From Pseudomonas sp. PDNC002 (GTDB taxonomy: Bacteria; Pseudomonadota; Gammaproteobacteria; Pseudomonadales; Pseudomonadaceae), in the NCBI RefSeq assembly GCF_016919445.1, contig NZ_CP070356.1:4095502-4159501 (forward strand): a stretch of DNA of 64,000 nt, given 5' to 3'. The position numbers were made by a program, and so were the translations under genes. Below are positions 41,585 through 58,831 of the stretch, piece after piece (within the stretch, counting starts at the first letter, position 1; each line of letters starts with the position of its first letter). The notes under the pieces were generated by a model. That model was not told the origin of the DNA. It worked only from the letters and a program-made list of their open reading frames with translations, and did not search any database.

Positions 41585-41614
41585 CACTTTTTTGTGCGCG
41601 GGGCACAAAAAGGT
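41585..41614. promoter_or_regulatory. Inverted repeat, probable HxlR operator
   Basis: CTTTTTTGTGC (41587-41597) and GGCACAAAAAG (41601-41611) are inverted copies separated by only 3 nt, between the divergent GST and HxlR genes and 19 bp from the regulator's start. Confidence 0.65.
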
Positions 41615-41630
41615 TACCGGGAAGGCATTG

Positions 41631-41966
41631 ATGAAGAAGAACGTGTCGGGCTGTTCGGTCGAGGAAGCCATGCGCGTGATCGGCGGGCGCTGGCGCTTGC
41701 TGCTGGTGTCCTACCTGCTCGACGGCAGCAAGCGCTTCAACGAGTTGCGGCGGGACATGCCGGACATTTCCCAGCGCGTGCTGACCCTGGAATTGCGGGC
41801 ACTGGAGGAGGCCGGGCTGATCGTCCGGACCGTCTACCCCGAGGTGCCGCCGCGCGTGGAGTACCGCCTGAGCGACGATGGCGAACGGCTGCGGCCGGTG
41901 GTGGAGGTGGTGAAGACCTTCGGCCTGTGGCTCAAGGCACGACCGGAGCCGCAGGACGCGGAGTGA
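41631..41966 (+). CDS. HxlR-family transcriptional regulator
   Basis: 111-residue winged-helix protein: CSVEEAMRVIGGRWRLLLVSYLLDG, then KRFNELRRDMPDISQRVLTLELRALEEAGLI and YRLSDDGERL, the standard HxlR pattern. Cys8 is at the position used as a redox sensor in several HxlR proteins (YodB/HypR type). Divergent from the GST, it most likely controls that gene. ATG 41631 is chosen for GGGAAGG just upstream. Confidence 0.9.
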   Translation: MKKNVSGCSVEEAMRVIGGRWRLLLVSYLLDGSKRFNELRRDMPDISQRVLTLELRALEEAGLIVRTVYPEVPPRVEYRLSDDGERLRPVVEVVKTFGLWLKARPEPQDAE

Positions 41967-42013
41967 TCCTGCGGCGCGGGCGTCAACCGCGATGAAGCCC
42001 GCGCCGAGCCGAT

Positions 42014-44113
42014 CTAGAACCCGCTTTCGCGCAGCGCCACGGCCAGCAGGCGGGTGACGCCTTCGCCCAACCAGCTGCGCCGCGCCCCTTCGATCTGCAG
42101 GTGTCCACGGGTTTCGCGCAGGCTCGGCGGCGGCGCGTCGAGTTGCACCAGCACATGGAACAGCGCCGGATTGGGTACCAGCGCCTCGCCCTGGGTATTG
42201 ACGTTCAGCGGGCCGCCATAGCGCGAAGCGAGCATGGGTTGTTCCAGCTGGCTGATGCGGGTAGTGCCGATCAGCACGACCTGCCCGCTGATGGGCGTCG
42301 GCACTCCTTCGGGGTAGAAGCGCACGGGGCCGCCATCGGTGAGGCGCTGTACTTCGTCCTGCTTGACATAGGCGTCCACCAGCCAGTGCTGCGGGTCCAC
42401 CAGCACGCCGATCGGCTCGCGGGTGTTGATCCACTGGCCGGCCTTCCAGTCCGGGTTGACATCCATCCAGCGGCCGGCGAAGGGCGCTTGCAGGGTCAGG
42501 CGGGCCATTTCGTTGCGCGCGGCGCGGGCCTGCTGGTACTCGACGCCCAGGCGCTGGCGGGTGACGGCTTCCTCGCTGAGGCCGGATGGATCGGCGAGCA
42601 TGCCCGCCAGGCGCCCCTGGTAGCCGCGGATGCCGGCCTCGCTGCCGCGCACCTTGGCGGCGATGTCCGGCTCCTCCATGACCGCCAGCGTCTCGCCCTT
42701 GCCGACTTCCCCGCCGGAGCGCAGGTCGCGCAGCAGGGCGGGGAATGGCGCATAGACGTGCAACTGCTGCGCGGCGCGAGCCACGCCCATGGCGTGAACC
42801 TGGGTGCGCCACGGCACGGCGAGCAGGAGCAGCACGGCGCCGAGCAGCGCGATGAACACCAGTTTGCGCCGCGGTTTCACTTCCGCGCGGCGCCCCCACC
42901 AGACCTTGAGTTCGCGCCACACGGGCTGAACGATGAACCAGCTGATTTCCACGGCGAACAGGAATATCCCAAGCAGCTTGAAGAAGAAGTAGTAGACCGC
43001 CACCGCGATGCCGAGGAACAGCAGCAGGCGGTAGACCCAGGTACCGAAGGCGAAGGCCACCAGCGCCCGGCGCTTGCCGATGGGAAAGTGCTCCGGCCAG
43101 GGTTCGTCCAGCCCCAGCAGCTTGCGCCGCAGCGTGGTGCGCGCCAGGGCGCCGGCGCGCTCGTGCAGGTTGGGGAAGTCCAGCAGGTCGGAGAAGATGA
43201 AGTAGCCGTCGAAGCGCATGAACGGGCTGGCATTGAGTGCCAGGGACAGCGCCCAACTGGTTGTCGCCAGGTACAGCAGGGCGTTGCGCAGCGGGCCGGG
43301 ATCGGCCAGCGCCCAGCCCAGCGTGGAGAGCCCGGCCAAGCCCAGTTCGGTGATGATCCCGGCGCTGGCGATCGCCAGGCGCTGGCGGTTGCTGCGCAGC
43401 TTCCAGCTCTCGCCGGTGTCGGTGTAGAGCATCGGCCACATCACCACGAAGGCGATGCCCATGTGCGCGACCTTCAGCCCCAGCCGCGTCGCCACCAGCG
43501 CGTGGCCCAGCTCATGGAGCGTCTTGGCCACCACCAGGGCGGCGGCGAAGCTGAGCAAGCCTTCGAAGGAGAAGGATTCCACCACGTCGTGGGTGAAGGT
43601 GTCCCACTGGTGTGCCACCAGCACGATGCCGGCCAGGCTCAGGAGTATCACCAGCATCGCCAGGTAGCGGTTGAACAGCCAGTCCAGGCTGCCGGCGATG
43701 GCGCGCAGGAAGCGTTGCGGACGGAGCAGCGGGATGCGGAAGAACAGGTAGTGGTGCAGCCACCAGTTCCAGGTCATCCACTGCGCGCCGTCGCTGCGGG
43801 CCTGCAGGCGTGCCAGCGCGTCGGCGCCGGGGCGCAGCAGTTGGTGGTGTTCGAGGAACTGGCGGAAGCCCAGTACCTGTTCGGCGTCGGGTTTTAGCGC
43901 AGTCTGCTCGGCGATCTGTTCGCTGATCTGCCGGGGCGTCTGTTCCCAGCGCAGCAGGCATTCGAACTCCAGCCAACCGATGCGGTAGAAGCGGTTGAGC
44001 ACGCTGTCGTGGATCACCCAGACCGGCTCGCCGTTGGGGCCGGGCGCGGCTTCGTCCAGACGCAGGTCATCGCGCAGCGGCGGGGTGGGCAGGTCTTCGG
44101 CGGTGACGTCCAT
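42014..44113 (-). CDS. PqqD-like / M50 peptidase / HlyD fusion, putative export component
   Basis: 699 residues. Residues about 31-95 (LNRFYRIGWLEFECLLRWEQ...FLEHHQLL) look like a PqqD/RiPP-recognition-type domain. Residues about 140-415 are a multispanning membrane unit with the zinc site H200-E-L-G-H204 and the second S2P motif N294-ASPFMRFDG303, as in M50 site-2 proteases. Residues about 425-699 are a HlyD-type adaptor arm (LHVYAPFPALL, APFAGRWMDVNPDWKAGQ). It is the last gene of the five-gene adhesin locus, 2 bp after the preceding one. With no ABC ATPase present, it may form the inner-membrane part of the exporter. Confidence 0.85.
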   Translation of the reverse strand: MDVTAEDLPTPPLRDDLRLDEAAPGPNGEPVWVIHDSVLNRFYRIGWLEFECLLRWEQTPRQISEQIAEQTALKPDAEQVLGFRQFLEHHQLLRPGADALARLQARSDGAQWMTWNWWLHHYLFFRIPLLRPQRFLRAIAGSLDWLFNRYLAMLVILLSLAGIVLVAHQWDTFTHDVVESFSFEGLLSFAAALVVAKTLHELGHALVATRLGLKVAHMGIAFVVMWPMLYTDTGESWKLRSNRQRLAIASAGIITELGLAGLSTLGWALADPGPLRNALLYLATTSWALSLALNASPFMRFDGYFIFSDLLDFPNLHERAGALARTTLRRKLLGLDEPWPEHFPIGKRRALVAFAFGTWVYRLLLFLGIAVAVYYFFFKLLGIFLFAVEISWFIVQPVWRELKVWWGRRAEVKPRRKLVFIALLGAVLLLLAVPWRTQVHAMGVARAAQQLHVYAPFPALLRDLRSGGEVGKGETLAVMEEPDIAAKVRGSEAGIRGYQGRLAGMLADPSGLSEEAVTRQRLGVEYQQARAARNEMARLTLQAPFAGRWMDVNPDWKAGQWINTREPIGVLVDPQHWLVDAYVKQDEVQRLTDGGPVRFYPEGVPTPISGQVVLIGTTRISQLEQPMLASRYGGPLNVNTQGEALVPNPALFHVLVQLDAPPPSLRETRGHLQIEGARRSWLGEGVTRLLAVALRESGF

Positions 44114-44115
44114 GG

Positions 44116-45456
44116 TTACCAGCCTGTCCAGGCACGCAACGAGGCCAGCGGGCGGCGCAACAGGTAGTAGCCAAGCACGACGCGCTCGCCGTAGAGCTTG
44201 GCGGTGCCATGCAGGCCGAGGCGGGCGTGGGGCGGGGTGTTGTCCACGCTGGCCAGCAGGCGGTAGGAGGCGACGCCCTCGTCGCTGGGCTTGGCCTGGT
44301 AGCTGGTGTCGAGGATTTCCCCGTGCAGCGGGTCGAGCGGGTAGGCGGTGAGGAACAGCGCCACTTTCGCGCCCGGTTCCAGGGCGATGGCGTCGGCCAC
44401 CGGCAGCTGGATGCGCATGCCCGGCGCCTTGGGATCGGCGATCTGCAGGATGCGCTCGCCGGTCACCACCGGTTTGCCCAGCCAGTCGTTCGGGTCGCTG
44501 TACACGGCGACGCCGGCGCGCGGGGAGAGCACGCGGGTGCGCGCCAGTTGCACCTGCACCGCGGCGAGCTCGGCGCGGCGCTGGCGGGCGCGACCGTCGA
44601 GCACCGAGAGCTCGCCCTTGCTTTGCGGGTTGTCGAAGGCACGCTGGCTGGCAGCCATGAGTTCGGCGTCGGCTACCGCGACTTCCTTGGCCAGCACGTC
44701 GGCGCGGCTGCGCAGGGTGGTTTCGTCGAGCTCGAACAGCGGCGTGCCAACCTCCACCGCCTGGTTGGGCCGCACCAGTATTTTCGCGATGACCCCGTCG
44801 ATGGGCGAACTGATGACCTGGGCGTTGCGCGATACCACTTCGGCCGGCGCCAGGGCGGTCTGCCGCACCGGGATCAGCAGCAGCGCGGCGAGCGCGATCA
44901 CCCCGACCAGCACCTGGCGTTTGCTCGGACGCCAGAAGCGCAGGCGGGTGCGCGGCCCGAAGGATGCCCAGGCGTGCGCCCAGGTCTGCCAGATGCCTTG
45001 CAGCAGCGGTTGCAGGTTGCGCGCCGGCGCTTCGTCGAGGAGGAACAACACCAGGCCCAGGCGCCTGCCGGCACGGTCGTGCAACGGCACGCACCAGACG
45101 CCGGCCGGCCACCATTCGCTCCAGCCCTCGGCGATATCCGCGGGCGGTTCGATGGCGTCGCGGGCTATCCAGCTGGGCGTGGCATCGGGCACCTGCGCGG
45201 CGATCCAGCGGCTCGCACGTTCCAGCCAGACCAGGTAGGGCGAGTCTTCCGTGGGCTTGGCCAATCCGGAAACGGCCAGCAGCTCGTTGCGCGCGTCATG
45301 GCAGGCGAACACCAGGGCCTGGTGGAAGCGCAGCAGCGGGAACAGGTCGTTGGCGATGCTGAATGCCAGGCCATTGAGCGAGTCGGCCGCCAGGGCCTTG
45401 TCGCGTACGTTGGCCAGGCTCAGCAGCAGCTGGGGTGGCGGCAGCAGCTCACTCAT
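44116..45456 (-). CDS. HlyD-type adaptor with GAF-like cytoplasmic N-terminal domain
   Basis: 446 residues. About residues 1-165 are cytoplasmic and resemble a GAF domain (ALAADSLNGLAFSIANDL, HQALVFACHDARNELLAV, WCVPLHDRAGRRLGLVLFLL). A membrane segment (about 181-197) follows, then a HlyD barrel/hairpin (VVSRNAQVISSPIDGVIAKI, TPLFELDETTLRSRADVL). The combination suggests an adaptor that senses a cytoplasmic signal or contacts a partner. It overlaps the preceding adaptor gene by 8 bp. ATG 45456 is used; ATG 45462 is possible; neither has a strong site. Confidence 0.82.
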   Translation of the reverse strand: MSELLPPPQLLLSLANVRDKALAADSLNGLAFSIANDLFPLLRFHQALVFACHDARNELLAVSGLAKPTEDSPYLVWLERASRWIAAQVPDATPSWIARDAIEPPADIAEGWSEWWPAGVWCVPLHDRAGRRLGLVLFLLDEAPARNLQPLLQGIWQTWAHAWASFGPRTRLRFWRPSKRQVLVGVIALAALLLIPVRQTALAPAEVVSRNAQVISSPIDGVIAKILVRPNQAVEVGTPLFELDETTLRSRADVLAKEVAVADAELMAASQRAFDNPQSKGELSVLDGRARQRRAELAAVQVQLARTRVLSPRAGVAVYSDPNDWLGKPVVTGERILQIADPKAPGMRIQLPVADAIALEPGAKVALFLTAYPLDPLHGEILDTSYQAKPSDEGVASYRLLASVDNTPPHARLGLHGTAKLYGERVVLGYYLLRRPLASLRAWTGW

Positions 45457-46234
45457 GGGCATCGGGGAAGCGCGCAACCCCGCTCATGCCGGCGATCAGT
45501 TCGGGGTAGCTGGCGTCCAGCTTCGCCTCCAGCTCGACGGTCTGCGCCACCGCATCGACCCGCGCATTGATCGCGCTGATCCTGGCCGGGTAGTGCTTGC
45601 CGGTCTCGTGGATATCCACCTGCAGCGGCATGCCCGGTTGCAGGCGTGGCAGCAGGGAGGAGGGTACGTTGAGACGGACTTTCAGTGCGCCATCGCTGAC
45701 CAGGTCGAACAGCGGCGTACCGGCGGAAACGGTCTGGTAAGGCTTGACGTAGACCTTGGCGATGCGGCCGGCGAAGGGCGCGTCCACCAGGCAGTAGCCC
45801 GCCTGGGCGCGGGACAGGGTGAGGGCGCCGTCGGCCTTCTGCACTTCGGTGTTGGCCATGGCCACTTCGAGGTCACCGACCGCGTCGAGCTTGCGCAGGT
45901 TCTGCTTGGCCGCCAGGTTCGCGCGGGCCATGTTCAGCTCGGCGGCCGCGACCTTGGCCCGGGCGTTCACCTCCACGCAGTTAAGCTGGGCGAGTGGCGC
46001 GTCCTTGGCGACCTTCTCGCCGAGGCTGGCCTTGAGTGCACCGAGGGTGCCGTTCATCTGGGCGGAGAGGGTGGTTTCCAGGTCGGACACCAGCAGCACG
46101 CGGATGGCACCCGGATCGTCGCCTTCGCCCGGTGGCGGAAGCGGGGCCGCGGGGTCGGCGGCCCAGGTGGTGGAAACGATCATCAGGCAGAGCGGAAGGA
46201 ACAGGTACGACGACTTACTGCGCGGGTGCGGCAT
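45449..46234 (-). CDS. HlyD-family periplasmic adaptor
   Basis: 261 residues with a Sec signal (MPHPRSKSSYLFLPLCLMIV), then an RND/MFP-type adaptor: biotinyl-lipoyl halves (TTLSAQMNGTLGALKASLGEKV and APFAGRIAKVYVKPYQTV), a short helical hairpin between, and a beta-barrel (LKVRLNVPSSLLPRLQPGMPL). It likely bridges the TolC-type channel to the inner-membrane fusion proteins. GAAGGAAG precedes ATG 46234. It overlaps the tolC-like gene by 20 bp. Confidence 0.88.
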   Translation of the reverse strand: MPHPRSKSSYLFLPLCLMIVSTTWAADPAAPLPPPGEGDDPGAIRVLLVSDLETTLSAQMNGTLGALKASLGEKVAKDAPLAQLNCVEVNARAKVAAAELNMARANLAAKQNLRKLDAVGDLEVAMANTEVQKADGALTLSRAQAGYCLVDAPFAGRIAKVYVKPYQTVSAGTPLFDLVSDGALKVRLNVPSSLLPRLQPGMPLQVDIHETGKHYPARISAINARVDAVAQTVELEAKLDASYPELIAGMSGVARFPDAHE

Positions 46235-47825
46235 TGGCACTTCCTTCTGTACTGCTGGCTACGTTGGTACTGGAAAGATTGTTACTGGAGAGACTGCTGC
46301 TGGAGAGATTGCTGCTGGAACCATTGCTGGCGAGCAGGTTGGTGCTGGTCTGTTGCTCGAGGGTGCGCTGGATCTCGCGGGCCAGCGTCTTCACGTCGTG
46401 GTTCTGGATTTCCTTGGGCATCACCTCGAAGCCTACCGAGTTGTACAGGCGGCCCCACGCGGCTTGGGCGTCGGAATAGGCGGCCTCGCGCTGGTAGCGC
46501 GAAAGCAGGAAGCGGCCTTCGGCGCGGATCAGCTCCAGCTCGCTGCCCAGCGCGGCGCCGTGGGCGGATTGCGCGTAGCTGAGCAGGCTCTGGTCGACGC
46601 GCAGGCTCTCGTCGGCGAACTCGACTTCCTGGCGGGCCAACTGATAGCGCAGCAGGCCGACCCGGACCTGGGTGAGGATGGCCATGGACAGCGCGGTGCG
46701 GCGCATGTCGTCGGTCTTTTCCTGGCTGGCCTCGGCGGCCTTGATGTCCGGGTACTGCAACAGGCGCAGCAGGTTCATCGAGACGTTGATGCCGGTCTGG
46801 TTCCAGTCGTTGTTGTAGAGGTACTTGTTGGAGTCGTACTCGTAGCCGTAGTTGAAGCTCACGTTGGGCCACAGCTGGGCCTTGGCGATCTTCAGGTCGT
46901 TCATGTCGACGCGTTTCCTGTACCACTCCTCCATGATTTCCGGACGGCGCTCCAGGGACAGGCGTTCGAGCTGCTCGACGTTGTTGGTCACCAGCGGCAG
47001 CGGCTGCTCGTTGACGTCGGCGAGCACCATCTTGGTGTTGGGCGGCAGCGACATCAGCGCGGCCAGCTCGGCGCGGGCGAATTCCAGGTCCTGGCGGCGC
47101 ACGGTGAGCATGTACACCGAGTCCAGCAGGGCGCGCTGGTAGGCGAGGATGTCCTGGCGCGGTAGCAGGCCCTTGCCCTCGGCTTCGCGGGCGGAGGTGA
47201 GGGCGCGGTGGGTGCGCAGCAGCAGGCCGTCGACCTCCGGCAGCAGGCGTTGCGCGCCCAGCGCGCGCCAATAGGCGTTGCGCACGTCCTGCAGGACGTT
47301 CTGCGCGACTTTCTCGCGGCGCTCCTCGGCCATCAGGATCTGGTCGTTCTTCTGCTGCGTGCGGAAGTAGGCGACGCCGAAGTCCAGCAGGCTCCACGAC
47401 AGGCCGAGGCTGTACAGCTGCCGGTAGCGCTCTTCCGAGGTCGACGGGCGCAAGCTGACCTGGCGATCCTCGATGCCGATGGAGGTGCCACCGGAGTCAT
47501 TGTTGCGCCCGGCATAGCCGGCGGAGGCCACCACCCGCGGCAGCATTTCGTGGCTGCTGACGTCGCGCAGGTCGGAGGCCAGCGCGCTTTCCAGCAGCTT
47601 AAGGCGGTAGTCGAGGTTGTATTTGAGGGCGCGTGCCGAAGCCTCGTAGAAGGTGATCGGGCCGTTCACCGGCTCCTGTTCCTTGTACATCCGCGCCTGG
47701 TCCTCGATCACCCGCTGACGCATCTCGTCCTCGGTGTACGGCTTGGGCTGGAACGCCGAACAGGCTGTCAGGAACAGGCTGGCGGCGACGGCTGCGGTCA
47801 GGGTCTTCAGGGCAAATACGGGCAT
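46215..47825 (-). CDS. TolC-family outer-membrane lipoprotein channel
   Basis: 536 residues. It has a lipoprotein signal with lipobox LFLTAC (Cys22), then an OEP/TolC body with two helical repeats (about 60-260 and 280-480; DVRNAYWRALGAQRLLPEVD, EVEFADESLRVDQSLLSYAQ). The C-terminus is a Ser/Asn-rich pentapeptide-repeat tail encoded by 15-bp DNA repeats. Start 47825 has AAGGA; the in-frame ATG at 47867 would overlap the giant gene's stop (ATGA) and give an 18-residue-longer N-terminus before the core. It presumably provides the outer-membrane exit for the giant protein. Confidence 0.88.
   Translation of the reverse strand: MPVFALKTLTAAVAASLFLTACSAFQPKPYTEDEMRQRVIEDQARMYKEQEPVNGPITFYEASARALKYNLDYRLKLLESALASDLRDVSSHEMLPRVVASAGYAGRNNDSGGTSIGIEDRQVSLRPSTSEERYRQLYSLGLSWSLLDFGVAYFRTQQKNDQILMAEERREKVAQNVLQDVRNAYWRALGAQRLLPEVDGLLLRTHRALTSAREAEGKGLLPRQDILAYQRALLDSVYMLTVRRQDLEFARAELAALMSLPPNTKMVLADVNEQPLPLVTNNVEQLERLSLERRPEIMEEWYRKRVDMNDLKIAKAQLWPNVSFNYGYEYDSNKYLYNNDWNQTGINVSMNLLRLLQYPDIKAAEASQEKTDDMRRTALSMAILTQVRVGLLRYQLARQEVEFADESLRVDQSLLSYAQSAHGAALGSELELIRAEGRFLLSRYQREAAYSDAQAAWGRLYNSVGFEVMPKEIQNHDVKTLAREIQRTLEQQTSTNLLASNGSSSNLSSSSLSSNNLSSTNVASSTEGSANAAPAQ
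46264..46323. repeat. 15-bp tandem repeat (4 units) in the tolC-like gene
   Basis: TTGGTACTGGAAAGA, TTGTTACTGGAGAGA, CTGCTGCTGGAGAGA, TTGCTGCTGGAACCA head to tail. On the coding strand they give the pentapeptides SSNLS/SSSLS/SNNLS/STNVA-type tail. In-frame expansion or contraction would change only tail length. Confidence 0.85.
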
Positions 47826-47863
47826 GTTCTGTCCTTGGTCCATCCGTAAAAAGTGCGGCTGTT

Positions 47864-50800
47864 TCATTGGCTGCCGCCCCGGCGCTGGGCGGCGTCGCGC
47901 AGTTGCGCGCGGAAGCCCGGCGCGGTCTGCTGCGCGGTCTTCTCGGCCTTGGCCACCATGTCGCCGGGGAAGGGTGCCCACAGCGAGGGATCGGGTAACA
48001 GCCCGTCGGCACTGAGGCTGATGACGCCATGGCGGCCGTCGACCCAGCGCGTGTCCAGGTTGGCGGCGCGGCGGCTTTCGGCCACGGCGCGAGCGACGAA
48101 CTGACCTTTGACCTGGCCCAGTTGCGCGCCCAGCGACGGGCTTTCGATCTCCGGCGTGGCGAAGATGTCGATGTTGCTGCCGTCAGCACCCCAGGCCGAC
48201 AGCGACAGTCGATCATCGATGCGCTCGACCACCGGCTGCACGAAGATCGCCGGGTCGACGTCGGGGAGCCGGTCGCGCGGGTAGCCGTCGTCGCCGAAGC
48301 GGTCGAAGTGCGGGCCCGGCGGGATGTAGGGCGTGGCGATGTTCAGGGTGATGGTCAGTTGGGCCTGGTCGGTGAGTCCGGCCAGGTCGCTGATGGTGTA
48401 GGTGAAGTAGTCCTTGAGGATCTGGCCCAGGCCGGCGGCCGCCAGGACTTCACGGTTGCTCATGTCGATGGTGTAGGTGTAGCTGCCGTCGGCGTTGAGC
48501 ACGAGGGTGCCGTAGCGGCCGACGATGGGCTGGCCGACGGTGCCCGACGTGCCGCTGCCGGTTTCTTCGCCAGTGCGGATGCCGGTCACGGTGAGGCGGT
48601 CGCCGCCGTCGACATCGCTGTCGTTGGGCAGGACATTGCCGGTGGCCTGCGGCGCCGGGGTTTCGTCGCTGGCGACATTGCTGTCGTCGCGCGCCACCGG
48701 GTTGTCGTCGGCGCCCTGGATAGTCAACGTCAGGCGCGCGTCGGAGGTGGCGCCGGCGGTATCGCGCATGCGGTAGGTGAAGACCTCGCGCAGGGTTTCG
48801 CCGGCGGTGCGCAGGGCTTGCACCGTCGGGTTGGCGTTGTCCACGACGTACTGATAACTGCCGTCGGCGTTGATCGTCAGCTTGCCGTACAGCCCTTGAA
48901 GTACCTGGCCGGCGCTGACGGTGTTGCCATTCTCGCTGGTGTAGTGGACGACGGTCTTGGTTTCGCCGTACTGCACGCCATCCACGTCGGTATCGTTGTC
49001 CAGCACGTTGCCGCGCGGATCGACGCCGGGGGTGCCATTGTTCACGCCGCCGGCTTCGACGGCGGTGGCGGTATCGTCACTGGCGATGGGCGTGTCGTTG
49101 CGTCCATCGATGGTGATGGTGAGCAGGCCGGGGGTGGCGCCGCCCCAGATGTCCGCGCCCAGGTAGGTGAAGGTCTCGGTCAGGGTCTGGCCGCTCTGGC
49201 GCAGGGCTTCGACTTCCGGCAGGGAGTTGTCCAGCACGTAGTTCCAGCTGCCGTCCTGGTTGATCGTCAGCGTGCCGTACTGGCCGCGCAGCGACTGGCC
49301 GGGCACGCTGGCGTCGGCCGGTAGCGGGCGGTCGCCGGTCCAGAACGAGACGACGTGCATCACGTCCTGCGGGATGGTGGTGATGGTGTCGGGGTCGGTG
49401 TCGTTGGCCAGCACGTTGCCCGAGGGATTGCTGCCCGGCACGTTGTTGTGCAGGCCGCCGTCCTCCACGGCGGTGCCGAAGTCCGGCGAGGTGATCGGCG
49501 GGTCGTTCTGGCCACGAATCAGGATGACCAGGGTGGCCTGGTCGCTGAGGTTGCCGTCATCGGTGACCTGGTAGGTGAATTCCTCGATGGCGAAGGCCAG
49601 CGGACCGAGCGCCCGGATGGTCGCGTTGTTGTTGTCGACGAAATACTGGTAGCTGCCGTCGGCGTTGATCACCAGGGTGCCGAAGGCGCCCAGGATGGTC
49701 TGCGGACTGCCCGGCACCACCGCGACGGTGTTCACCTGCGCGCCCTCGGGGCCCTTGGCGATGGTGGTGACGCGCATGTGGTCACCGGCATCGACATCGG
49801 TGTCCTTGCCGACACCGTCGAAGATCCCGGTCAGGCCGGTGATCACGTTGCCGGTGGGGTTGCGCCCGCCGCTGCCGTCGAGGTCGGCGACGGCATAGTT
49901 GATGTCGTCGTTGGCCACCGGGGCGTCATAACGGCCCTGGATGGTGATGGTAATCCGTGCCAGGGAGCTGGCGCCGTCCGTGTCGTGCATGCGGTAGGTG
50001 AAGGTCTCGACCAGGGAGTCGCCGAGCTTCAGTGCCTGCACCGCCGCCAGGTCGTTGTTGACGGCGTAGACGAAGTTGCCATTGGCATCGATGCTCAGGC
50101 TGCCATAGGCGCCCGCGACGGCGGTGGACCCCGCCGCCACCTGGGTGAAGCTGCCGCCGGCGTTGAGTACGCCGAAGCCGATGCCATCGACGGTCTTGCT
50201 GTCGCCCGCATCGACGTCGGTATCGGCGCCGGCTCCGCTGCCAGGTACGCCAGTGAGGGCGTTGCCGGTGCCGTTCTGGCCGGGCGTGCCGTTATTGGTG
50301 CCGCCGGCCTCGATGGCGGTGGTGGTGTCGTCCACCGCGATGGGCGTGTCGTTGCGACCGTGGATGACGACGGTGAAGGTGGCGGTGATGGTCTTGCCGT
50401 TGCCATCGCTGACGCTGTACTGGAACACCTCGGTCAGCTGGTTGGCGTCGGTGCGCAGCGCTTGCACGGCGGCATTGGTGTTGTCGACCACGTAGCGGTA
50501 GTTGCCCTGGGCGTCGAGCACCAGGCTGCCATAGTTGCCGGCCAGGCTCTGGCCCACGGTGCCGGTGTTGCCGGTGGGGCTGATGATGCCGGTGATGGTC
50601 AGGGTGTCGCCGTCAGGATCGGTATAGGACGAGCGGATGCTGCCGCTCGGGTCCACGCCCGGAATATTGTTGTTCAGGCCGCCGGCCTCGATGGCGTCGA
50701 CCCTGACCGGGTTGACCACCGGCGGGTCGTTCACGCCGGTCACGGTGATCACCAGTTGCGCCTGGTCGGTCAGCCCGCCGACGTCGTGGATGCGGTAGGT

Positions 50801-53800
50801 GAAGATCACATCCAGGCTCTGCCCGGCGGTGAGTGCGCGGATGGCCGGATCGGCGCTGTTGACGATGAAGCTGTAGGTCCCGTCCTCGTTGAGCGTCAGT
50901 TCGCCGAAGCTGCCGCTGATGAGGCTGCCGTTGGCCAGTCTTGCCACGGTGCCGAAGATGTCGGCGGGTGTGCCGGTGGTGACCGGGGTGAGCGCGCCAC
51001 CAGCGGTTTCCAGACCCGAGCGCACGCCGTCGACCTTGAGCTGGGTGGCGTTGGGCTGGTCGACGCTGTCGACATCGGTGTCGGCACCGACGCCATTGGT
51101 GTCCCCGGTGATCACGTTGCCATTGGCGTTGACCGGGCCCGGTGTGCCGTCGCTGGCAGCGGCGGTGGCGGTGTTGTGGTCGTCCACCGCCACCGGCGCG
51201 TCATTGGCGCCCTGGATGGTGATGGTCAGGGTGGTGATGGAGCTCAGGCCACCGGCGTCGGTCATCTGGTAGGTGAAGACCTCGGTCAGTGTCTGGCCGG
51301 GGGAGAGGGCCTGCACGGCGGCGTTGCTGTTGTCGATCACATAGCGGTAGCTGCCGTCGGCATTGATGGTCAGGCTGCCGAAAGCGGCCTGCAGGCTGGT
51401 GGCCTGGCCGCTGGTGACCGGGAAGATGCGACCACCGCCAGGTCCATCGTAGCGTACGAGACTGACGGCCTTGGTTTCGCCCAGCGCCACAGAGTCGACA
51501 TCGGTGTCGGCGCCGACACCGGTGATTGGGGCGCCGGTGAGCACGTTGCCGGTAGCGTCCTGGCCGCCGCTGCCGTTGTTGGTACCGCCGGCCTCGATGG
51601 CGGTGCCGGTGTCGGGATTGGCGATCGGGGTGTCGTTGGCGCCGTGGATGTCCACCGACAGAAGGGCCTGGCTACTCAGCCCGCCGCTATCGACGATGGT
51701 GTACTGGAATACGTCGATGATGAAGTTGCCGGCGGTGCGCAGTGCCTGCACCGCGGCATTGTTGTTGTCGACGATGTACTGGAACCCACCGGTGGCGGTG
51801 ATCAGCAGGGTGCCGTACTTGCCCTGGATGATGTTCAGGCCGCCTGCCGGGATATCCACGCCCGCCGGCGTGACCGAACTGGCGACATGGGTGACCGTGA
51901 GGACATCGTTGTTGGTGGCGATATCGACGTCGGTGTCGTTGTCGAGCACGTTGCCGGTGGGGTTCACACCCGGATCGGCATTGAGCAGGCCGCCCGCTTC
52001 CACGGCGATGGCGATGTCGTTTTGGGCAATGGGCGCGTCGTTGACCGGGTCGATGACGATGTTCATCACATCGGTGTCGGTCAGCGCGTCGTCGGGGTTT
52101 TCACCGGGAATGCCGTCGCCATCCTTATCGCCGAAGTTGCCCTGGTCGTTGGTGACCATGGTCAGGGTCTCGGCGGTATGGAAGGTGTTGAAGTCCTGGT
52201 CGCCCTTGTAATAGATCTGGCCGAGCAGCACGTTGATCTGCTGCAGGGTGCCCGTCAGCACCAGGGTGCGTCCGGCACCGGCGGGTGGGGCATCGGTCGG
52301 GCCGGGTGTCGTGGCGCTCTGCCAGAGCGTGCCATGCACCACCGTCAGGGTGACGGTCATGATGCCGTTGGCATTGCCCGCGTTCACGTCGACGTCGCTG
52401 GTAGCCAGGCCGACGATATGCAGCACCGTGTCCTCGACGCCGTGCTGGTCGGTCACGGTGTTGATCGGCGCCTCGTTGAGGTGCACGTAACCGGTATCGG
52501 CGGTGCCGATGGCACCTTCGCCAAGGCCGACATTCACCGAGCCAAGCCCGCCGGCGGCGGTACCGGTATCCGTGTCGATGCGCACGTGGAAGCGGTTGTT
52601 GGCCGCCAACTGGTAATCCAGCGGCACGGCGACCAGGTAGTTGCCGGCCGGCAGGATGGCGAACTGGTACTGGCCGCCATTGGCCGTGATCGTGTTGAAC
52701 ACGCGATCGTCAGCGTTGCCGAAGATGCCATCGGCACCGGCCCAGGTGAGTTGTACGGCCACGCCGTCCAGCCCGGTCCCATCGGGGGTCGTGCTGTTGG
52801 TGGCGGACTTGGTGTCGTCCCACAGCGTGCCCTGGATCACACCCATCCCCGCACCTTCGCTGAGGATGTAGTTGTTCAACCCGGCGGTGCCGTCCTGACC
52901 GGTGCGTTCGCCGTCGGCTCCGCCGGCGGTCAGCGGCTTGGAGCCGCCCCAGCCGTTGGTTTCGAAATCGGTGGGCAGGCTGGTCCAGGTCAGCACGGCG
53001 GCGCTGTTGGCGTCGTCGGCGATGACGGTGTTGGGCAGGTCGACCTTGTAGACCACCTGGACGCTGTCATTGACGTTCAGCTGATCGAAGTCGATGACCA
53101 GGTGCTGGCCGTTGGCATCGGTGACCACGGTGGCGGTGACGCCCGCCGGCAACGCGCCGGGCAGGTAGGTGACGCCATTGATGACCAGGCTCTGCAACTG
53201 GTAGTTGCTGCCGTTGGGGAACTGGTCGCGCAGCTCGACGTTGTAGGCCGGCACGCCACCGTTCTGGGTGAAGCCTACGGAGACGGTTGCGGTCGTGCTG
53301 TTCGCGCCGGCAACGATGTCGGTGACATGCTTATCGAGCCCGGTGAAGCTCGGCTCGACCACCTGCTCGAAGATCGTGTCGCTCTTGCCGCGGTCGACCC
53401 CGTTGCCGTCGCCGACATGCTCGAAGACGTTCATGCCCAGGCGTGCCCCCGCCTGGTTGCTGGCGACGTTGGTGACCCGCACGTTGAATTCCAGGATCAC
53501 GCCTTCCAGATCGCCGTCGTTCACTTCGGAGTTGGTCAGGTTGCCGAGGTTGAAGGTGACGGTCTGGCGGCCGCTGACGGGGTCGGTAACGATGCTCAGG
53601 CGGCCGCTGTTGATGTTGAAGACGCCGGTGGGGTGGTCGCCGGACAGGTCCGGATGGATCGGCTGCGCCACGTCGCTGGCCTGGTTGCCGATCATGCCGA
53701 GGGTGCCGCTGCTGATCAGGTTGGTGGCATCGGTGGTCAGGCCGCCGATTGCGCTGGAACCCAGGGCGATGAGGATGTTGTTGAGGTCGGCGGGGATGAA

Positions 53801-56800
53801 CTCCAGGCCGGCGGCCAACTCGATGCGGATCTGGTAGTTGGGGTTGTCGCCGGTCGGTACCAGTACCGTGACGCGGTAGCGAATGATCTCGCCGACCACT
53901 ACGGTTTCCTGCAGGCCGGTGGTATCGGTGGCGCCGGAGGAGTTGGTGGCAGGCGGGGTGGCGTCGACGCCACCGATCCGCGAGACCAGGATGCCGTTGG
54001 TAATCGGAATGAGCAGGGCGTTGCGCACCCGGTAGTCGTTCAGCGCGCCGGAGTTGAGCAGGCCGTCATCGCCGCTGCGCTCGCCATTGGCCGTGTCGGT
54101 GGCACTACTGGTGCCGTCCAGGCTGGTCCAGCGCACCTCGACGTTGTTGGGAATCACCGCCAGGCCGGCGGCGCTGGCGTTCACCACGCCGGTCAGGTGG
54201 ATAACGATGCTGCCGCCGTTGGCGATGTCGATGTTGGCGCCATTGGCGGTGATCAGTTGGCCGTTCTGGATGACGAAGTCCAGTGTGCCGTTGTTGGTGG
54301 CGCCGCCGTTGTAGGTGATGGTGCCGTTGAACGTCATGTTGTCGATCTGCGTTGGCAGCAGATCCTGCAGGCTGATATCGAAGGCAGTGGTGCCGGAATT
54401 GTTGGCAATGGTGATGTCGAAGTTGACGACGTCGCCCTGGTCGAAGCCGCCGAATTCCGGGGTGGTGGTGATCTGCTGGGTGACCGTCAGCGTGGGTTCG
54501 ACGATGGTCACGCTGGGTTGCTGCGCACTGGTTACGGTGCGGTCGATGGCCGTGGCACCGTTGGGCGTGTCGCCATCCGGGTCGCTATAGACCAGTTGCG
54601 CGCCATTGTTGAGGGTCACGCCCTGCTGGTTGCCGGGGACGTTGCTGGCGACCAGCACCAGGCGGATGACGAAGGCGTTGTTGCCGGTGTTGTTGTCCGC
54701 GGTGGAACCGGCGCTGCTGAACACCAGGCGCATGTCGCCGCCATCGCTGCCGTCGGCGCTGAAGCTGGACACGTTGAGCGTGCCGCCGAAGTCCTGGGCC
54801 AGCGCCGTGCTGCCGGCCGTGGTGGTAATGATCAGGTAGCCGAGGTTGCCGTTGAAGCGCGGGTCCAGGCGCAGGCCGGGCGGAATCAGGTCGTCGATGC
54901 GCAGGTTGGCGGTGGAGCCCTCGGGGAGGGTGACCACGATGTCGTAGGTCATGCTCTCGCCGATCACCAGATTGCTGCCGGTGGTGTGCGAGGCGCTGGA
55001 ATCGTCGGGGGTCAGGCTGCCGTTCTGGTAGGTCTTGGTGATGACCGGCGCGGCCACCTGCTGGTTTGCCACTTCCACCAGGTCCACCGGGGTAAAGTCC
55101 TGGCCGCCGTTGACGCTGGCATAGTTGGTCAGCGCGGCGCTGGATTGCAGCGTGCGCGCGGCGAGGATGGCGTTGTCCACGGTGACGTCGTAGGTGATCA
55201 CCACGACGTTGGCGCCGCTGGTGTCGTTGGCCGTGCCGGCGCGGCCGGCCAGCAGCGTGGCCTGGCCGTTGGCGTCGAGGAAGGTGATGGTGTTGCCGCT
55301 GACGCTGTAGTCGACGCCGAGCGTCAACGGCGTGCCATCGCCCCGGTAGATCTGCAGGTTGGCGCCGGCCAGGCCGCCGCCGACGAACGCCAGGCCCGGG
55401 GGCAGGGTGACGCTGGTGCTGACGTCGTAGGCGCCGCCGCCACCGCTGTTCTTGATCGCGGTGGCCAGGCGCAGGGTGTCGGCGCCGTCGATGCCGCTGA
55501 CGTTGCCATCCACCGCCGCGATGGCGGTGACGTTGCCGCCGAAGGGCACGCCGCTGGAGCCCGGCGCGGTCCAGCTACCGGTGGTGCCGGTGACCGTGCC
55601 GTTGCTGCTGGACACCACGCCGTGCTTGATGTCCAGCACCGGTTCGGCCACCGAGGCGATCTCGGCGACATCCGAGGAAACCAGCACTGTCTTGTCGATG
55701 GTGGTGGTCTGGCTGGATTGCGCCAGGACGTCCAGCGAACGCTGGTCGGCGTAGGGCTGGTCGCCAACGACCATGGTGAACTGCACTTGTACGCGGCCGC
55801 CATTCAGGCCGCCCGAGGCGAAGTTGCCGAAGTTGAAGATGATCGAGTTGCCCGGCCCGGTGGTGACGCTGTCGGGCACGTCGCTGATGTTGTTGCCGAT
55901 GCCAAAGGTCCATTGGCCAACACCCGCGCCCTGGCTCCAGTTGATGCCATTGGCGTTCAGCAGCGGCAGGGGCAGGTAGGCGGTGAGGGTGAAGTTCTCG
56001 TAGTCGGCGACCAGCAGGTCGTAGGTGATGGTAAAGGTCACCACATCGCCGGGACGCAATTCGCCGTTCCCCGGCGGTGCGCCGCCGTTGACCGTACTCA
56101 GCTCGATGTCGACATTGGACGTCTGGATGGTGCTGGTGGTGGTGGAACCGTCGGTCTGTTCTCCGCCGAGGTTGACCGAGTCACGCAACACGGTGGCGGC
56201 CACGGTCGCATTGTTGCCGACGCTGTCGCCCTCGTTGAGCTGGTCGTGGGGCGGATGGTCGCTGGTATAGGTGGTGTCGACGACCGCGTCATAGACGATG
56301 GTCATGCGCGTCGCGCCTTCCTGCAGGCTGTCGTGCCAGAGGTCACCGAACAAGGCATACAAGCCAGGCCCCTGGACGGCCGCGGCGATGGAGGCGCCGA
56401 TATCGAAGACCAGCGTGGTGCTGCCGTCGGCGTTGGTCGTGACGGTGTAGATCACCGGGATGACCTGCGTGCCGCCGTGCTGCTGGAGGACGATGGTAGG
56501 TGGGTTGCTCGGGTCGAACGTCTGGCCGTCGCTCAACAGGTCGGTGACGGTGAAACGGCCTTGCTGGAAGATGTTCTCGCCAAAGGCGAAGAAGTCCGAG
56601 ATCGCGATTTCCATGTTGTAGCGCAAGGTGTCGCCCGGGGTCAGGCCGGGTTGGCCGACATCGTTCTGCAGGTTGACTTCCTTGAGCAGGGTGATGGACT
56701 TGGCGACGAAGGTGACGCCTGCGCCGTTGCCGGTCTCGGTGAACGGGTAGCCGTTCGGGTCGGTGGGGCGGTCGCGCGGGTCCAGCGGGTTCCAGTTGCC

Positions 56801-58492
56801 GTTGACGGTGGCGGTGCCGAAGGTGATGGTCACCGGGTTGCCGGTGGACGGATCGATCACGGGCCGGCCATTGGCGTCGATTTCCGGCACATAGAAGCTG
56901 ACCTGGGTCGTGCTGGGGCCGCTCAGCGTGTCGTAATGGACGGAGTAACTGCTGATGAAGGCGTTGGGGTTGGCCAGGGCGGCAGCGATCTGCGCCGGAT
57001 CGGTCAGGACGGTGCCGTCATGCAGGGTCACCGAGGTCAGCGTGCCGCCAGCGCCAGGGGTGATCGAGCTGACATGGACCTGGTCGGGAACCGTCTGGGT
57101 AACGGTGACGTTGGTCAGCGTCTGGCCGGTGGCGGGGGTGACGGTGACGGTCTCGGTCCGCGTGAAGTTCGGGCCGGTGACCGTCTCGCCCTCGGGCATG
57201 TCCACGGTCTGGGTCACGCTGAGCAGCGTCGGGGTGATGACGAACGCATGCAGCGCGTTTTCCACCACGCTCGGGTCTTGCACGGGGTTGTTCAGCGAAT
57301 CGTTGCCGTACTCGAAGCCGCCGCGGGCATTGATAGTGAGGTTGGGCGCGCCGTCGGAATAGGTGGTGTCGGCCAGGTTGCTCAGGTGCGCGGTGACCTG
57401 GATGTCGATGCTCGGCTGACCGTTGATCACGCTGGCGTAGGGTAGTTGCAGTACCACCATCTGGTCGCCCGGCTTCATGCCGACGGTGGCGGCATTGATG
57501 ACCAGCGGATTTCCATTGGCGTCCTTGGCCAGCGGGTGGGTGGCGTTGCCGTTGGCGTCGAAGGTGATCACCGTGGCATTCACCGCACGGCCAAGGTAGG
57601 TCGCACTGACGAAGCTCGCGCCGTCGTTGCCGTCGCGGCCGGTGGCCGGCAGGAAGACATCGATGTAGGGGGCGTAGCCCACTTGCGTGGAGACGTTTCT
57701 GAAGCTCACGGTGAAGGTGACATCGTCGCCCAGGCGCACGGCCGAACCACCACTGCCCATGCTGACGGTGGGGCTGGCGTCAGCCAGCAGGCCCCGGAAG
57801 TCCACCAGGGTCGTGGCACTGAGGGCGATGGCCTTGTCGACGTCGCCCGAGCGTACTTCGAGGTTCCAGTCGCCACCGGCGCTGGTGGAACCCGTGGCGT
57901 TGCTGGAGGCGCCGACATCGGCGCCGGTCCAGCGCGCCAGTTCATTGACCAGTGCCTGCCCGGAACTCCCCGCGCCGACGTCGCAGCCATAGAGCTGGAT
58001 GTCGGCACCCGCGTTGAGCTCGCTGCGCCAGGCGCTCAGCCGTTCGCCCAACTGGTCGACGGTCTGGCTGGTGAAGGTCTGGTTGCCGAGGGTGAACTGG
58101 CCGGTGGCGCCGTGGGAGAAGATCTGTACCGAGTCGACCTTGCCCAGTTGCGCCAGCGCATTGCTGATCGCCGCGATGGCGTCCTGGCCGGCATCGACTA
58201 CCAGGGCGGTGGTGCCCACCGGCAGGTTGGCAGCCAGCTGGTCGCGGTTTTCCAGGCGGGCATCGATCACCACCAGGTTGCGTGGCGTCGCCTGGGGTGG
58301 GGCGGCAGCCTGCGCTCGCGCTTCGACCGCGGTGGCCGGCTTGGCCGTGTCCTTGGCCTCGGCGCTGGCAGTCGTGTCGTGGTGTTGCTGGTCGACGGCG
58401 GCAGCGGCTGCGCCGTCGAACAGAATGCGTTGTTCCAGCGCCAGGGCATGGGACATTGGCTGAAAAATCTTAGAGCGGTACTTGGCCTGCAT
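47864..58492 (-). CDS. Giant surface protein/adhesin: DUF4347, DUF11-like and VCBS repeats (3542 residues)
   Basis: The N-terminus carries the LEQRILFDGAA motif (about residues 19-29). A DUF4347-like domain follows (about 71-195) with H127 in IFSHGATGQFTLG and C170 in DIQLYGCDVG. Residues ~215-1870 are DUF11-like beta modules. An SdrD/Cna-B-like module lies near 1880-2000 (GVIQGTLWDD) and a cadherin-like module near 2020-2140. Nine VCBS-type repeats (NDxPxAxDD...EAGG) span about 2147-3377. A unique tail ends AAQRRGGSQ. It has no Sec signal and no RTX nonapeptides. ATG 58492 has AGGGA; ATG 58456 is an alternative. Export by the four following genes is inferred. Confidence 0.9.
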   Translation of the reverse strand: MQAKYRSKIFQPMSHALALEQRILFDGAAAAAVDQQHHDTTASAEAKDTAKPATAVEARAQAAAPPQATPRNLVVIDARLENRDQLAANLPVGTTALVVDAGQDAIAAISNALAQLGKVDSVQIFSHGATGQFTLGNQTFTSQTVDQLGERLSAWRSELNAGADIQLYGCDVGAGSSGQALVNELARWTGADVGASSNATGSTSAGGDWNLEVRSGDVDKAIALSATTLVDFRGLLADASPTVSMGSGGSAVRLGDDVTFTVSFRNVSTQVGYAPYIDVFLPATGRDGNDGASFVSATYLGRAVNATVITFDANGNATHPLAKDANGNPLVINAATVGMKPGDQMVVLQLPYASVINGQPSIDIQVTAHLSNLADTTYSDGAPNLTINARGGFEYGNDSLNNPVQDPSVVENALHAFVITPTLLSVTQTVDMPEGETVTGPNFTRTETVTVTPATGQTLTNVTVTQTVPDQVHVSSITPGAGGTLTSVTLHDGTVLTDPAQIAAALANPNAFISSYSVHYDTLSGPSTTQVSFYVPEIDANGRPVIDPSTGNPVTITFGTATVNGNWNPLDPRDRPTDPNGYPFTETGNGAGVTFVAKSITLLKEVNLQNDVGQPGLTPGDTLRYNMEIAISDFFAFGENIFQQGRFTVTDLLSDGQTFDPSNPPTIVLQQHGGTQVIPVIYTVTTNADGSTTLVFDIGASIAAAVQGPGLYALFGDLWHDSLQEGATRMTIVYDAVVDTTYTSDHPPHDQLNEGDSVGNNATVAATVLRDSVNLGGEQTDGSTTTSTIQTSNVDIELSTVNGGAPPGNGELRPGDVVTFTITYDLLVADYENFTLTAYLPLPLLNANGINWSQGAGVGQWTFGIGNNISDVPDSVTTGPGNSIIFNFGNFASGGLNGGRVQVQFTMVVGDQPYADQRSLDVLAQSSQTTTIDKTVLVSSDVAEIASVAEPVLDIKHGVVSSSNGTVTGTTGSWTAPGSSGVPFGGNVTAIAAVDGNVSGIDGADTLRLATAIKNSGGGGAYDVSTSVTLPPGLAFVGGGLAGANLQIYRGDGTPLTLGVDYSVSGNTITFLDANGQATLLAGRAGTANDTSGANVVVITYDVTVDNAILAARTLQSSAALTNYASVNGGQDFTPVDLVEVANQQVAAPVITKTYQNGSLTPDDSSASHTTGSNLVIGESMTYDIVVTLPEGSTANLRIDDLIPPGLRLDPRFNGNLGYLIITTTAGSTALAQDFGGTLNVSSFSADGSDGGDMRLVFSSAGSTADNNTGNNAFVIRLVLVASNVPGNQQGVTLNNGAQLVYSDPDGDTPNGATAIDRTVTSAQQPSVTIVEPTLTVTQQITTTPEFGGFDQGDVVNFDITIANNSGTTAFDISLQDLLPTQIDNMTFNGTITYNGGATNNGTLDFVIQNGQLITANGANIDIANGGSIVIHLTGVVNASAAGLAVIPNNVEVRWTSLDGTSSATDTANGERSGDDGLLNSGALNDYRVRNALLIPITNGILVSRIGGVDATPPATNSSGATDTTGLQETVVVGEIIRYRVTVLVPTGDNPNYQIRIELAAGLEFIPADLNNILIALGSSAIGGLTTDATNLISSGTLGMIGNQASDVAQPIHPDLSGDHPTGVFNINSGRLSIVTDPVSGRQTVTFNLGNLTNSEVNDGDLEGVILEFNVRVTNVASNQAGARLGMNVFEHVGDGNGVDRGKSDTIFEQVVEPSFTGLDKHVTDIVAGANSTTATVSVGFTQNGGVPAYNVELRDQFPNGSNYQLQSLVINGVTYLPGALPAGVTATVVTDANGQHLVIDFDQLNVNDSVQVVYKVDLPNTVIADDANSAAVLTWTSLPTDFETNGWGGSKPLTAGGADGERTGQDGTAGLNNYILSEGAGMGVIQGTLWDDTKSATNSTTPDGTGLDGVAVQLTWAGADGIFGNADDRVFNTITANGGQYQFAILPAGNYLVAVPLDYQLAANNRFHVRIDTDTGTAAGGLGSVNVGLGEGAIGTADTGYVHLNEAPINTVTDQHGVEDTVLHIVGLATSDVDVNAGNANGIMTVTLTVVHGTLWQSATTPGPTDAPPAGAGRTLVLTGTLQQINVLLGQIYYKGDQDFNTFHTAETLTMVTNDQGNFGDKDGDGIPGENPDDALTDTDVMNIVIDPVNDAPIAQNDIAIAVEAGGLLNADPGVNPTGNVLDNDTDVDIATNNDVLTVTHVASSVTPAGVDIPAGGLNIIQGKYGTLLITATGGFQYIVDNNNAAVQALRTAGNFIIDVFQYTIVDSGGLSSQALLSVDIHGANDTPIANPDTGTAIEAGGTNNGSGGQDATGNVLTGAPITGVGADTDVDSVALGETKAVSLVRYDGPGGGRIFPVTSGQATSLQAAFGSLTINADGSYRYVIDNSNAAVQALSPGQTLTEVFTYQMTDAGGLSSITTLTITIQGANDAPVAVDDHNTATAAASDGTPGPVNANGNVITGDTNGVGADTDVDSVDQPNATQLKVDGVRSGLETAGGALTPVTTGTPADIFGTVARLANGSLISGSFGELTLNEDGTYSFIVNSADPAIRALTAGQSLDVIFTYRIHDVGGLTDQAQLVITVTGVNDPPVVNPVRVDAIEAGGLNNNIPGVDPSGSIRSSYTDPDGDTLTITGIISPTGNTGTVGQSLAGNYGSLVLDAQGNYRYVVDNTNAAVQALRTDANQLTEVFQYSVSDGNGKTITATFTVVIHGRNDTPIAVDDTTTAIEAGGTNNGTPGQNGTGNALTGVPGSGAGADTDVDAGDSKTVDGIGFGVLNAGGSFTQVAAGSTAVAGAYGSLSIDANGNFVYAVNNDLAAVQALKLGDSLVETFTYRMHDTDGASSLARITITIQGRYDAPVANDDINYAVADLDGSGGRNPTGNVITGLTGIFDGVGKDTDVDAGDHMRVTTIAKGPEGAQVNTVAVVPGSPQTILGAFGTLVINADGSYQYFVDNNNATIRALGPLAFAIEEFTYQVTDDGNLSDQATLVILIRGQNDPPITSPDFGTAVEDGGLHNNVPGSNPSGNVLANDTDPDTITTIPQDVMHVVSFWTGDRPLPADASVPGQSLRGQYGTLTINQDGSWNYVLDNSLPEVEALRQSGQTLTETFTYLGADIWGGATPGLLTITIDGRNDTPIASDDTATAVEAGGVNNGTPGVDPRGNVLDNDTDVDGVQYGETKTVVHYTSENGNTVSAGQVLQGLYGKLTINADGSYQYVVDNANPTVQALRTAGETLREVFTYRMRDTAGATSDARLTLTIQGADDNPVARDDSNVASDETPAPQATGNVLPNDSDVDGGDRLTVTGIRTGEETGSGTSGTVGQPIVGRYGTLVLNADGSYTYTIDMSNREVLAAAGLGQILKDYFTYTISDLAGLTDQAQLTITLNIATPYIPPGPHFDRFGDDGYPRDRLPDVDPAIFVQPVVERIDDRLSLSAWGADGSNIDIFATPEIESPSLGAQLGQVKGQFVARAVAESRRAANLDTRWVDGRHGVISLSADGLLPDPSLWAPFPGDMVAKAEKTAQQTAPGFRAQLRDAAQRRGGSQ
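48360..52050 (-). repeat. Nine VCBS-type coding repeats in the giant protein
   Basis: The N-D-x-P-[IV] unit start recurs at about 48705, 49090, 49500, 49920, 50345, 50725, 51195, 51628 and 52035, a spacing of roughly 380-475 bp (125-155 residues). Each unit carries the T-G-N-V-L-x-N/T-D-x-D-V-D segment and GxYGxLxIxxDGSYxYVVDN. The units are diverged at the DNA level, so the repeat is old rather than freshly amplified. Confidence 0.88.
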
Positions 58493-58831
58493 TTTCCCTG
58501 ATTCCGACTGATTACATCCCCTAGAGAAAAGCAGTCCTACGCATATCTGCTTACGCAATTGACGCTAGTACCAATGTGAATTATCGCAAGTAGAACAGCG
58601 ACATATGCGACAAATAGCAGCGACATTTACCTGATATTCGTAACGAATTTCCTACATAAAAACGACAGGGTTCTGGGTCCGACGCGGTTTCCAGCCCTGG
58701 GCGGTGTATTGCCGGAGGTATGCCGGAAGGCTGCCGCATCGCCGGCATTGGCTACGCTTGAGCAAGCGGCGCGGGGCAGGGTGTCCGGCGCGCGCGGTGT
58801 TTCGCGGACAGGGACAGGAAAGGGGGAGAGG
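58493..58831. promoter_or_regulatory. AT-rich divergent regulatory region, adhesin / MscS
   Basis: 339 bp with much lower GC than its surroundings in 58555-58670. CAGCGACAT occurs at 58596-58604 and 58618-58626 (22 bp apart, two helical turns), with GCGACA between them. A 13-bp palindrome ATTCGTAACGAAT lies at 58636-58648. It is likely the regulator-controlled promoter of the adhesin operon. No short ORF in it is convincing. Confidence 0.55.

Follow-up and report, generated by a model that had tools for sequence, protein, structure and literature searches.

A giant surface protein of Pseudomonas encoded with a TolC channel, HlyD-type adaptors and a predicted leader-binding M50 protease in an operon without an ABC transporter gene

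LapBCE and SiiCDF are type I secretion systems for large adhesins, and an RTX-type signal is absent from some type I substrates. The Pseudomonas operon considered here shares with LapBCE and SiiCDF an HlyD-type adaptor, a TolC-family channel, and a giant repeat adhesin that lacks a Sec signal. It departs from them in that the gene set includes no ABC ATPase, in that the putative substrate has an N-terminal motif and no RTX repeats, and in that the inner-membrane protein is a fusion of a predicted RRE domain, a protease, and an adaptor. Peptidase-containing ABC transporters, which cut leader peptides by means of a C39 cysteine protease coupled to an ABC engine, likewise join leader recognition and proteolysis to an export component, as we infer for the present operon; here, however, the combination would consist of an RRE and an M50 metalloprotease, with no ATPase in the chain. 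An M50 protease is also what the operon has in common with the intramembrane metalloproteases of the daptide (NF041824) and YydH/LiaK (NF058609) families, whereas the protein considered here carries a fused periplasmic adaptor and has a giant as its partner. In searches of the open-access literature, no paper could be recognized as describing this gene set. One paper found there deals with an S-layer whose type I system is of the ABC type (PMC13274458).

The operon and a diverged second set

The operon lies at positions 42014–58492 on the minus strand of the window, the whole stretch of 64,000 nucleotides that was analysed, and its features are all on that strand. From its start it encodes the giant, a predicted surface protein and substrate with DUF4347, VCBS, and cadherin-like domains (47864–58492, 3542 aa); a TolC-family outer membrane lipoprotein (OEP; 46215–47867, 550 aa); a periplasmic adaptor of the HlyD/RND type with a signal peptide (45449–46234, 261 aa); a GAF-TM-HlyD protein (44116–45462); and the RRE-M50-HlyD fusion, M50-HlyD for short (42014–44119, 701 aa; GTG start as read, ATG two codons further in). 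The preliminary description of a five-gene minus-strand set, with a 3542-residue giant that has neither RTX repeats nor a Sec signal, held up when all five genes were checked one by one. The four junctions all overlap, by 4 to 20 bp, and a scan for promoters and terminators upstream of the giant gave no site. The adaptor and channel families of type I systems are present as PF13437 (HlyD) and PF02321 (TolC), both here and in the second locus described below. Beside the operon, at 38178–42000, lie genes that by sight resemble those for a glycogen branching enzyme, a glutathione transferase, and an HxlR-type regulator; upstream of it and divergent (58709–63092, plus strand) are, again by sight, genes for a mechanosensitive-channel-like protein, a MoxR-type ATPase, and a DUF58-like protein.

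In the predicted structure, a single M50-HlyD chain runs from a PqqD-like RRE leader-binding fold (residues 11–101; 43817–44089) through a SpoIVFB-like protease (M50/site-2 core, residues 135–321; 43157–43717) to a MacA-like periplasmic adaptor (residues 415–701; 42017–42877). The best 50 Foldseek matches listed were adaptors only, and the RRE, M50, and GAF matches came from a VIA second look. As expected of M50/site-2 proteases, this membrane protein has an HExxH motif (HELGH, residues 202–206) and a distal Asp (N296/D304), and H202, E203, H206, N296, and D304 were invariant in two alignments of 27 and 55 sequences. The fold of the first domain is, as modeled, that of leader-binding RRE domains; matches to the Pfam PqqD profile were weak, occurring in 2 of 55 relatives from clade B (one of the two clades defined below) and, with E values of up to 0.5, in 7 of 10 mixed relatives, where the best match had 2e-4 and all stayed below the cut-off. 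The best NCBIfam match was the daptide metalloprotease model NF041824 (residues 33–394, 1e-46), which at 159.8 bits stayed below the cut-off of 300. The GAF-TM-HlyD protein is predicted to combine a cytosolic GAF domain (residues 6–173), one TM segment (179–207), and a periplasmic MacA/HlyD-like adaptor (about 198–430). It had been suggested that the PqqD-like/M50/HlyD protein would replace or gate the inner-membrane step. Its architecture was borne out, but the PqqD-like part is predicted to have the RRE fold, so that we prefer leader recognition and proteolysis to a replaced transporter. In one relative (locus L082, genome G056), the M50-HlyD gene reads as two ORFs of 242 and 443 aa.

The window set is not a one-off. 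Its genome, a single 6.39-Mb contig with two DUF4347 matches and two M50-HlyD matches, holds a second, diverged set (locus L017), whose M50-HlyD/DUF4347 pair lies 0.39 Mb from the window operon. The order there is HlyD, GAF-HlyD, M50-HlyD, an Asp/Asn beta-hydroxylase, a sulfotransferase-like protein, divergent ORFs, the giant (2392 aa), and TolC. Identity to the window proteins amounts to 37% for M50-HlyD, 40% for GAF-HlyD, 36% for TolC, and 31% for HlyD, and the two giants align well only over the N-terminal motif and DUF4347, the matches of other segments being weak (E 0.33 or worse). The second M50 protein gave no match at 1e-10 against phage records. Between the exporter genes and the giant of L017 (4635–8462), the beta-hydroxylase (PF05118) and sulfotransferase-like (PF13469, just below the cut-off) genes are followed by a GNAT-like and two tail-collar-like ORFs, the latter three recognized by sight; the genes in this interval may encode substrate-modification enzymes.

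The RRE fold and the daptide match, albeit below its cut-off, might also be taken to mean that the RRE-M50 pair serves in the maturation of a small RiPP-like peptide, with the giant a mere neighbor. We consider this very improbable, given that a motif-bearing giant accompanies the pair again and again, in the two own-genome loci as well as in the different clades.

The N-terminal motif and its association with M50-HlyD

The co-occurrence survey proposed in the preliminary description was strongly positive. Among 369 genomes sampled from the class, 58 contained M50-HlyD (E 1e-20) and 46 contained DUF4347 (E 1e-5), 36 having both; the resulting table, [[36,22],[10,301]], gives a Fisher p of 1e-25, which is nominal, as are all p-values of the survey, because the genomes share ancestry. 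Sixty stretches around M50 matches and 40 around DUF4347 genes or giants were fetched, and profiles built from the window set and its paralog served to map genes in the first 80 stretches. A second locus set consists of the best 80 of 565 relatives and hence stays close to the window; of these loci, many of them truncated where a contig stops, 52 yielded TolC, 55 HlyD, and 74 GAF-HlyD. The survey thus bears out M50-HlyD as the hallmark of a conserved TolC-type set without an ABC gene that travels with giants. In the ten genomes with DUF4347 only, a search for a hidden M50 gave, among the matches listed, only ones that start at model column 392 or beyond, in the adaptor part. The set extends to several groups of proteobacteria and to Nitrospira MAGs, and M50-HlyD occurs in 52 plasmid records, 18 from Escherichia and 8 from Citrobacter. 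The E. coli IncF plasmid pABWA45_1 carries the five genes in the order of the window, with a giant that starts LESRQLFDGA; the annotation of the products goes no further than Ig-like, TolC, adaptor, and HlyD proteins. At L215 and L217 (pABWA45_1), the five-gene set is flanked by IS elements on both sides.

In the window giant, the DUF4347 domain (residues 73–236; 57785–58276) passes its PF14252 cut-off with 163.8 bits against 24.6. The protein also has VCBS/cadherin-like repeats, and RTX nonapeptides (GGxGxDx) number zero in either own-genome giant. The start of the protein is not hydrophobic (0.85–0.89) and contains, at residues 19–28 (58409–58438), the putative leader motif LEQRILFDGA, a D-type variant of the LEPR-XLL motif that holds both E and R. 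An LExRxxF[D/S][G/A] motif precedes DUF4347 in 37 of 40 proteins from M50-HlyD genomes versus 2 of 10 elsewhere (p 1.2e-5), the regular expressions for the motif having been written after inspection of the sequences. The 40 are the DUF4347 proteins with a readable N terminus; G193, whose N terminus is missing, was dropped, and G319, in which the motif pattern matches in frame 129 bases upstream of the DUF4347 match, was left out. The three motif-less proteins in M50 genomes belong to G323 (two) and G077 (one), and of the three DUF4347 genes of G323 only the one adjoining M50 carries the motif. A strict DNA pattern, LEPR..[DS][GA]A, was found in 12 of the 369 genomes, nine of them M50 genomes in which it lies at the start of a giant in all nine cases and three without M50-HlyD (G165, G210, and G213); the reversed pattern gave one site in one genome. 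The giants of the window genome escape the strict pattern because they lack the proline.

Some observations count against a strict pairing of motif and M50-HlyD. Motif-bearing DUF4347 proteins occur in G245 (99% complete) and G286 (85% complete), where the M50 core is absent among the matches listed, and two large ORFs near M50 have a Sec-like start and no motif (L150, 2956 aa; L043, 2141 aa). In seven further stretches upstream of M50, the motif was present in two (L118 and L121, the latter in a 1074-aa ORF), the large ORFs of the other five being still incomplete.

The preliminary description had spoken of a giant DUF4347/VCBS surface protein. As a substrate signature, DUF4347 was rejected: 8 of the 10 proteins from DUF4347-only genomes lack the motif, five of them with starts that are hydrophobic and Sec-like by sight and hydropathy (L086–L089, L094) and three starting almost directly with DUF4347 (L085, L090, L092). 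Moreover, the motif is also found near M50 on giants without DUF4347 (L040, L045, L046, L079, and L118). On sequence comparison, the feature common to the giants is the N-terminal LExR motif and not DUF4347, which looks like a passenger rather than a signal.

Two clades, SecA-like ATPases, and ABC transporters

When 70 M50 proteins were placed in a FastTree tree, the midpoint separated 33 (clade A) from 37 (clade B, which includes the window), with a support of 92. Motif-bearing giants in the locus of the M50 itself were S-type in clade A (13/13, e.g., LEPRILLSAD) and D-type in clade B (31/31, e.g., LEPRMMFDGA), where the 31 comprise 9 from the first set (L082 not being in the tree) and 22 in 21 loci of the second set, 8 of which are in the tree and the rest assigned by similarity. 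Such tracking of motif class and M50 clade would fit co-evolution of a signal and its reader, but common descent alone could explain it. One counter-case is G284, in which an S-type giant is unlinked to its M50 and the M50 falls on the clade B side. The clade A giants are members of the LEPR-XLL proteins as defined by NF012209 (cut-off 17 bits), with 6 of 7 S-type giants tested over the cut-off, clade A relatives scoring 22.5 to 29.2 bits and L079 16.6. None of the three D-type giants tested reached it: the window giant scored 15.0 bits, and the second own-genome giant gave no row at all.

At the other end of the giants, a [FL]xxQ[LVIFM] pattern, represented in the window by GFRAQLRDAA (47888–47917), occurs within the last 70 residues of 45 of the 53 candidate giants of the best-80 loci, the same 53 from which it was derived; in the other clade B set and in clade A it is found in 4 of 10 and 1 of 8, respectively, where 6 to 16% is expected. 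As a shared feature, this C-terminal motif is suggestive only. The last 70 residues of the giants of L077, L079, and L176, which belong to different clades, contain a DPLP stretch preceded by tryptophan.

Of the 33 clade A rows of the tree, 23 have a SecA-like ORF beside M50, against none of the 37 in clade B. Twenty of the 23 ORFs measure 646 to 728 aa, and the others are shorter, two of them at contig ends; judged by simple patterns, 19 of the 23 have a Walker A and 21 a Walker B. The four that were scanned match SecA_DEAD at 5e-71 to 6e-99, and the two scanned with NCBIfam fall below all SecA and SecA2 cut-offs. A second SecA-family match was found in 22 of 46 M50 genomes searched, all 22 of which hold a clade A M50, while five clade A genomes have a single match (G190, G206, G290, G295, and G350). 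The 15 genomes with all tree rows in clade B have at most one such match each, four searched M50 genomes outside the tree have one each, and the window genome has one SecA over the cut-off. As a second SecA-family ATPase, the clade A protein is reminiscent of SecA2 of the accessory Sec system, from which it differs in its usual length, its scores, and its linkage to M50-HlyD, and by its absence from the clade of the window.

These ATPases raise the question of whether the giant simply crosses the inner membrane through SecYEG, powered by housekeeping SecA or by the SecA-like partner. In that case, the LExR motif would act as an unusual targeting signal, and M50-HlyD would do no more than trim the protein and hand it over to the adaptors and TolC. 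Linkage of an ATPase, in most cases with Walker motifs, to the clade A M50 would suit such a Sec route, as would the lack of a second SecA in clade B genomes. The non-hydrophobic start of the giant, with E and R within the motif, argues against it. So do the 5 of 10 DUF4347-only genomes with Sec-like DUF4347 starts, which make Sec look like an alternative to M50-HlyD. On balance, we regard entry via Sec as unlikely.

Neither the window operon nor L017 contains an ABC match, such as the ATPase that type I systems have, and L017 has no SecA-like match either. Across the locus maps, no ABC exporter is conserved beside M50, in line with the earlier claim of a set without an ABC gene. ABC-like ORFs near M50 were found in 9 of 60 survey loci and in 8 of 80 loci of the best-80 set; being sporadic, they were rejected as a conserved partner. 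The nearest of those sharing the strand of M50 lie 78 and 81 bp from it (L045 and L046, respectively) and have two ATPase domains, no membrane domain, and the ABC_tran_Xtn and CTD regions of ABC-F type proteins. Also on the same strand, an ORF at 340 bp (L200) has two ATPase domains, a membrane domain not being among those listed, and one at 600 bp (L084) has one ATPase domain and a neighbor that is ABC-2-like by sight. On the opposite strand, ABC ORFs lie 183 and 879 bp from M50 at L195. A true exporter-type ABC is present at L079, at a distance of 5.1 kb. Elsewhere in the window (11924–14269, plus strand), a 781-aa ORF has a C-terminal ABC ATPase domain, an exporter membrane domain not being among the domains listed.

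A type I ABC transporter encoded at a distance might nevertheless move the giant, with the M50-HlyD set as an accessory for processing or gating. Large adhesins usually use type I ABC transporters; the window genome has one HlyB-type and two LssB-type transporters, and the exporter at L079 could be counted in the same direction. Yet none of the three transporters is near either own-genome locus. Furthermore, 37 M50 genomes out of the 58, each with a completeness of 90% or more, were tested with part of the candidates per genome scored, and 21 had no LssB match at 1e-100 and only HlyB matches starting at model position 124 or later, in the common ABC core. One of these (G354) has a PrtD-type protein over the cut-off, leaving 20 of 37 in which the LssB, HlyB, and PrtD models found no type I ABC transporter among the candidates scored. 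A conserved ABC partner elsewhere in the genome, named in the preliminary description as a finding that would speak against its reading, was not found in those 20 genomes, but the window genome does have its three type I transporters. We assign the remote transporter a low probability.

A possible leader-guided export route

Our main reading, to which we give a probability of about 0.5, is that the operon constitutes a dedicated export and processing machine in which an RRE-protease-adaptor complex reads an N-terminal leader and the giant leaves via TolC. The giant would be made with the leader LEQRILFDGA, to which the RRE domain of M50-HlyD may bind on the cytosolic side, and in this bound state it would be brought to an inner-membrane complex of M50-HlyD and GAF-HlyD, where the M50 site probably cuts at or beside the leader. 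The adaptor domains of these two proteins, together with the separate periplasmic HlyD and the TolC lipoprotein, would form the conduit, and the GAF domain probably gates export via a small ligand. For clade A, the most likely motor is the SecA-like ATPase encoded beside M50; clade B, and hence the window, would have to draw its energy from housekeeping SecA, from the proton-motive force, or from extracellular folding.

In three clade A loci (L048, L059, and L067), a PAS histidine kinase, a response-regulator/Ser-Thr kinase, and a PAS-GGDEF protein are encoded near M50, a gene neighborhood pointing to regulated export. Together with the GAF domain on an adaptor and the similar ends and variable middle of the giants, these neighbors would also be compatible with retention and release in the manner of LapA/LapG/LapD, where the giant would stay anchored in the conduit by its N terminus until M50 cuts the leader upon a signal sensed by GAF. 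LapG, however, is a periplasmic cysteine protease, whereas the M50 site is intramembrane, and the cytosolic position of an RRE suggests that recognition precedes export. We therefore consider retention and release rather improbable; it and dedicated leader-guided export can be true together.

Whether dedicated export amounts to a distinct two-membrane pathway, with an LExRxx[FLY][D/S][G/A] leader, an RRE-site-2 protease-adaptor reader, and a TolC exit without ABC, driven by the SecA-like ATPase in clade A and by another energy source in clade B, is a more tentative matter, on which we would put not quite even odds. We call the arrangement new in kind because its proposed leader, its proposed reader-protease, and its lack of an ABC transporter lie outside the definition of type I systems and because the open-access literature searched yielded no described system with these parts. 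If export ran by Sec or by a remote ABC transporter, the arrangement would instead be a variation on an existing system type. The occurrence of the set on plasmids of E. coli and Citrobacter makes it accessible to gene removal in a laboratory E. coli background.

If true, the proposed pathway would explain the sorting of a large class of LEPR-type giant surface proteins, and the LEPR-XLL motif would gain a reader. A further TolC route would come to light, one in which a leader-binding protease takes the place of a pump at the inner membrane, and the RRE, known from peptide natural product enzymes, would recognize proteins of thousands of residues. Likewise, a SecA-family motor would have been recruited to a TolC system.
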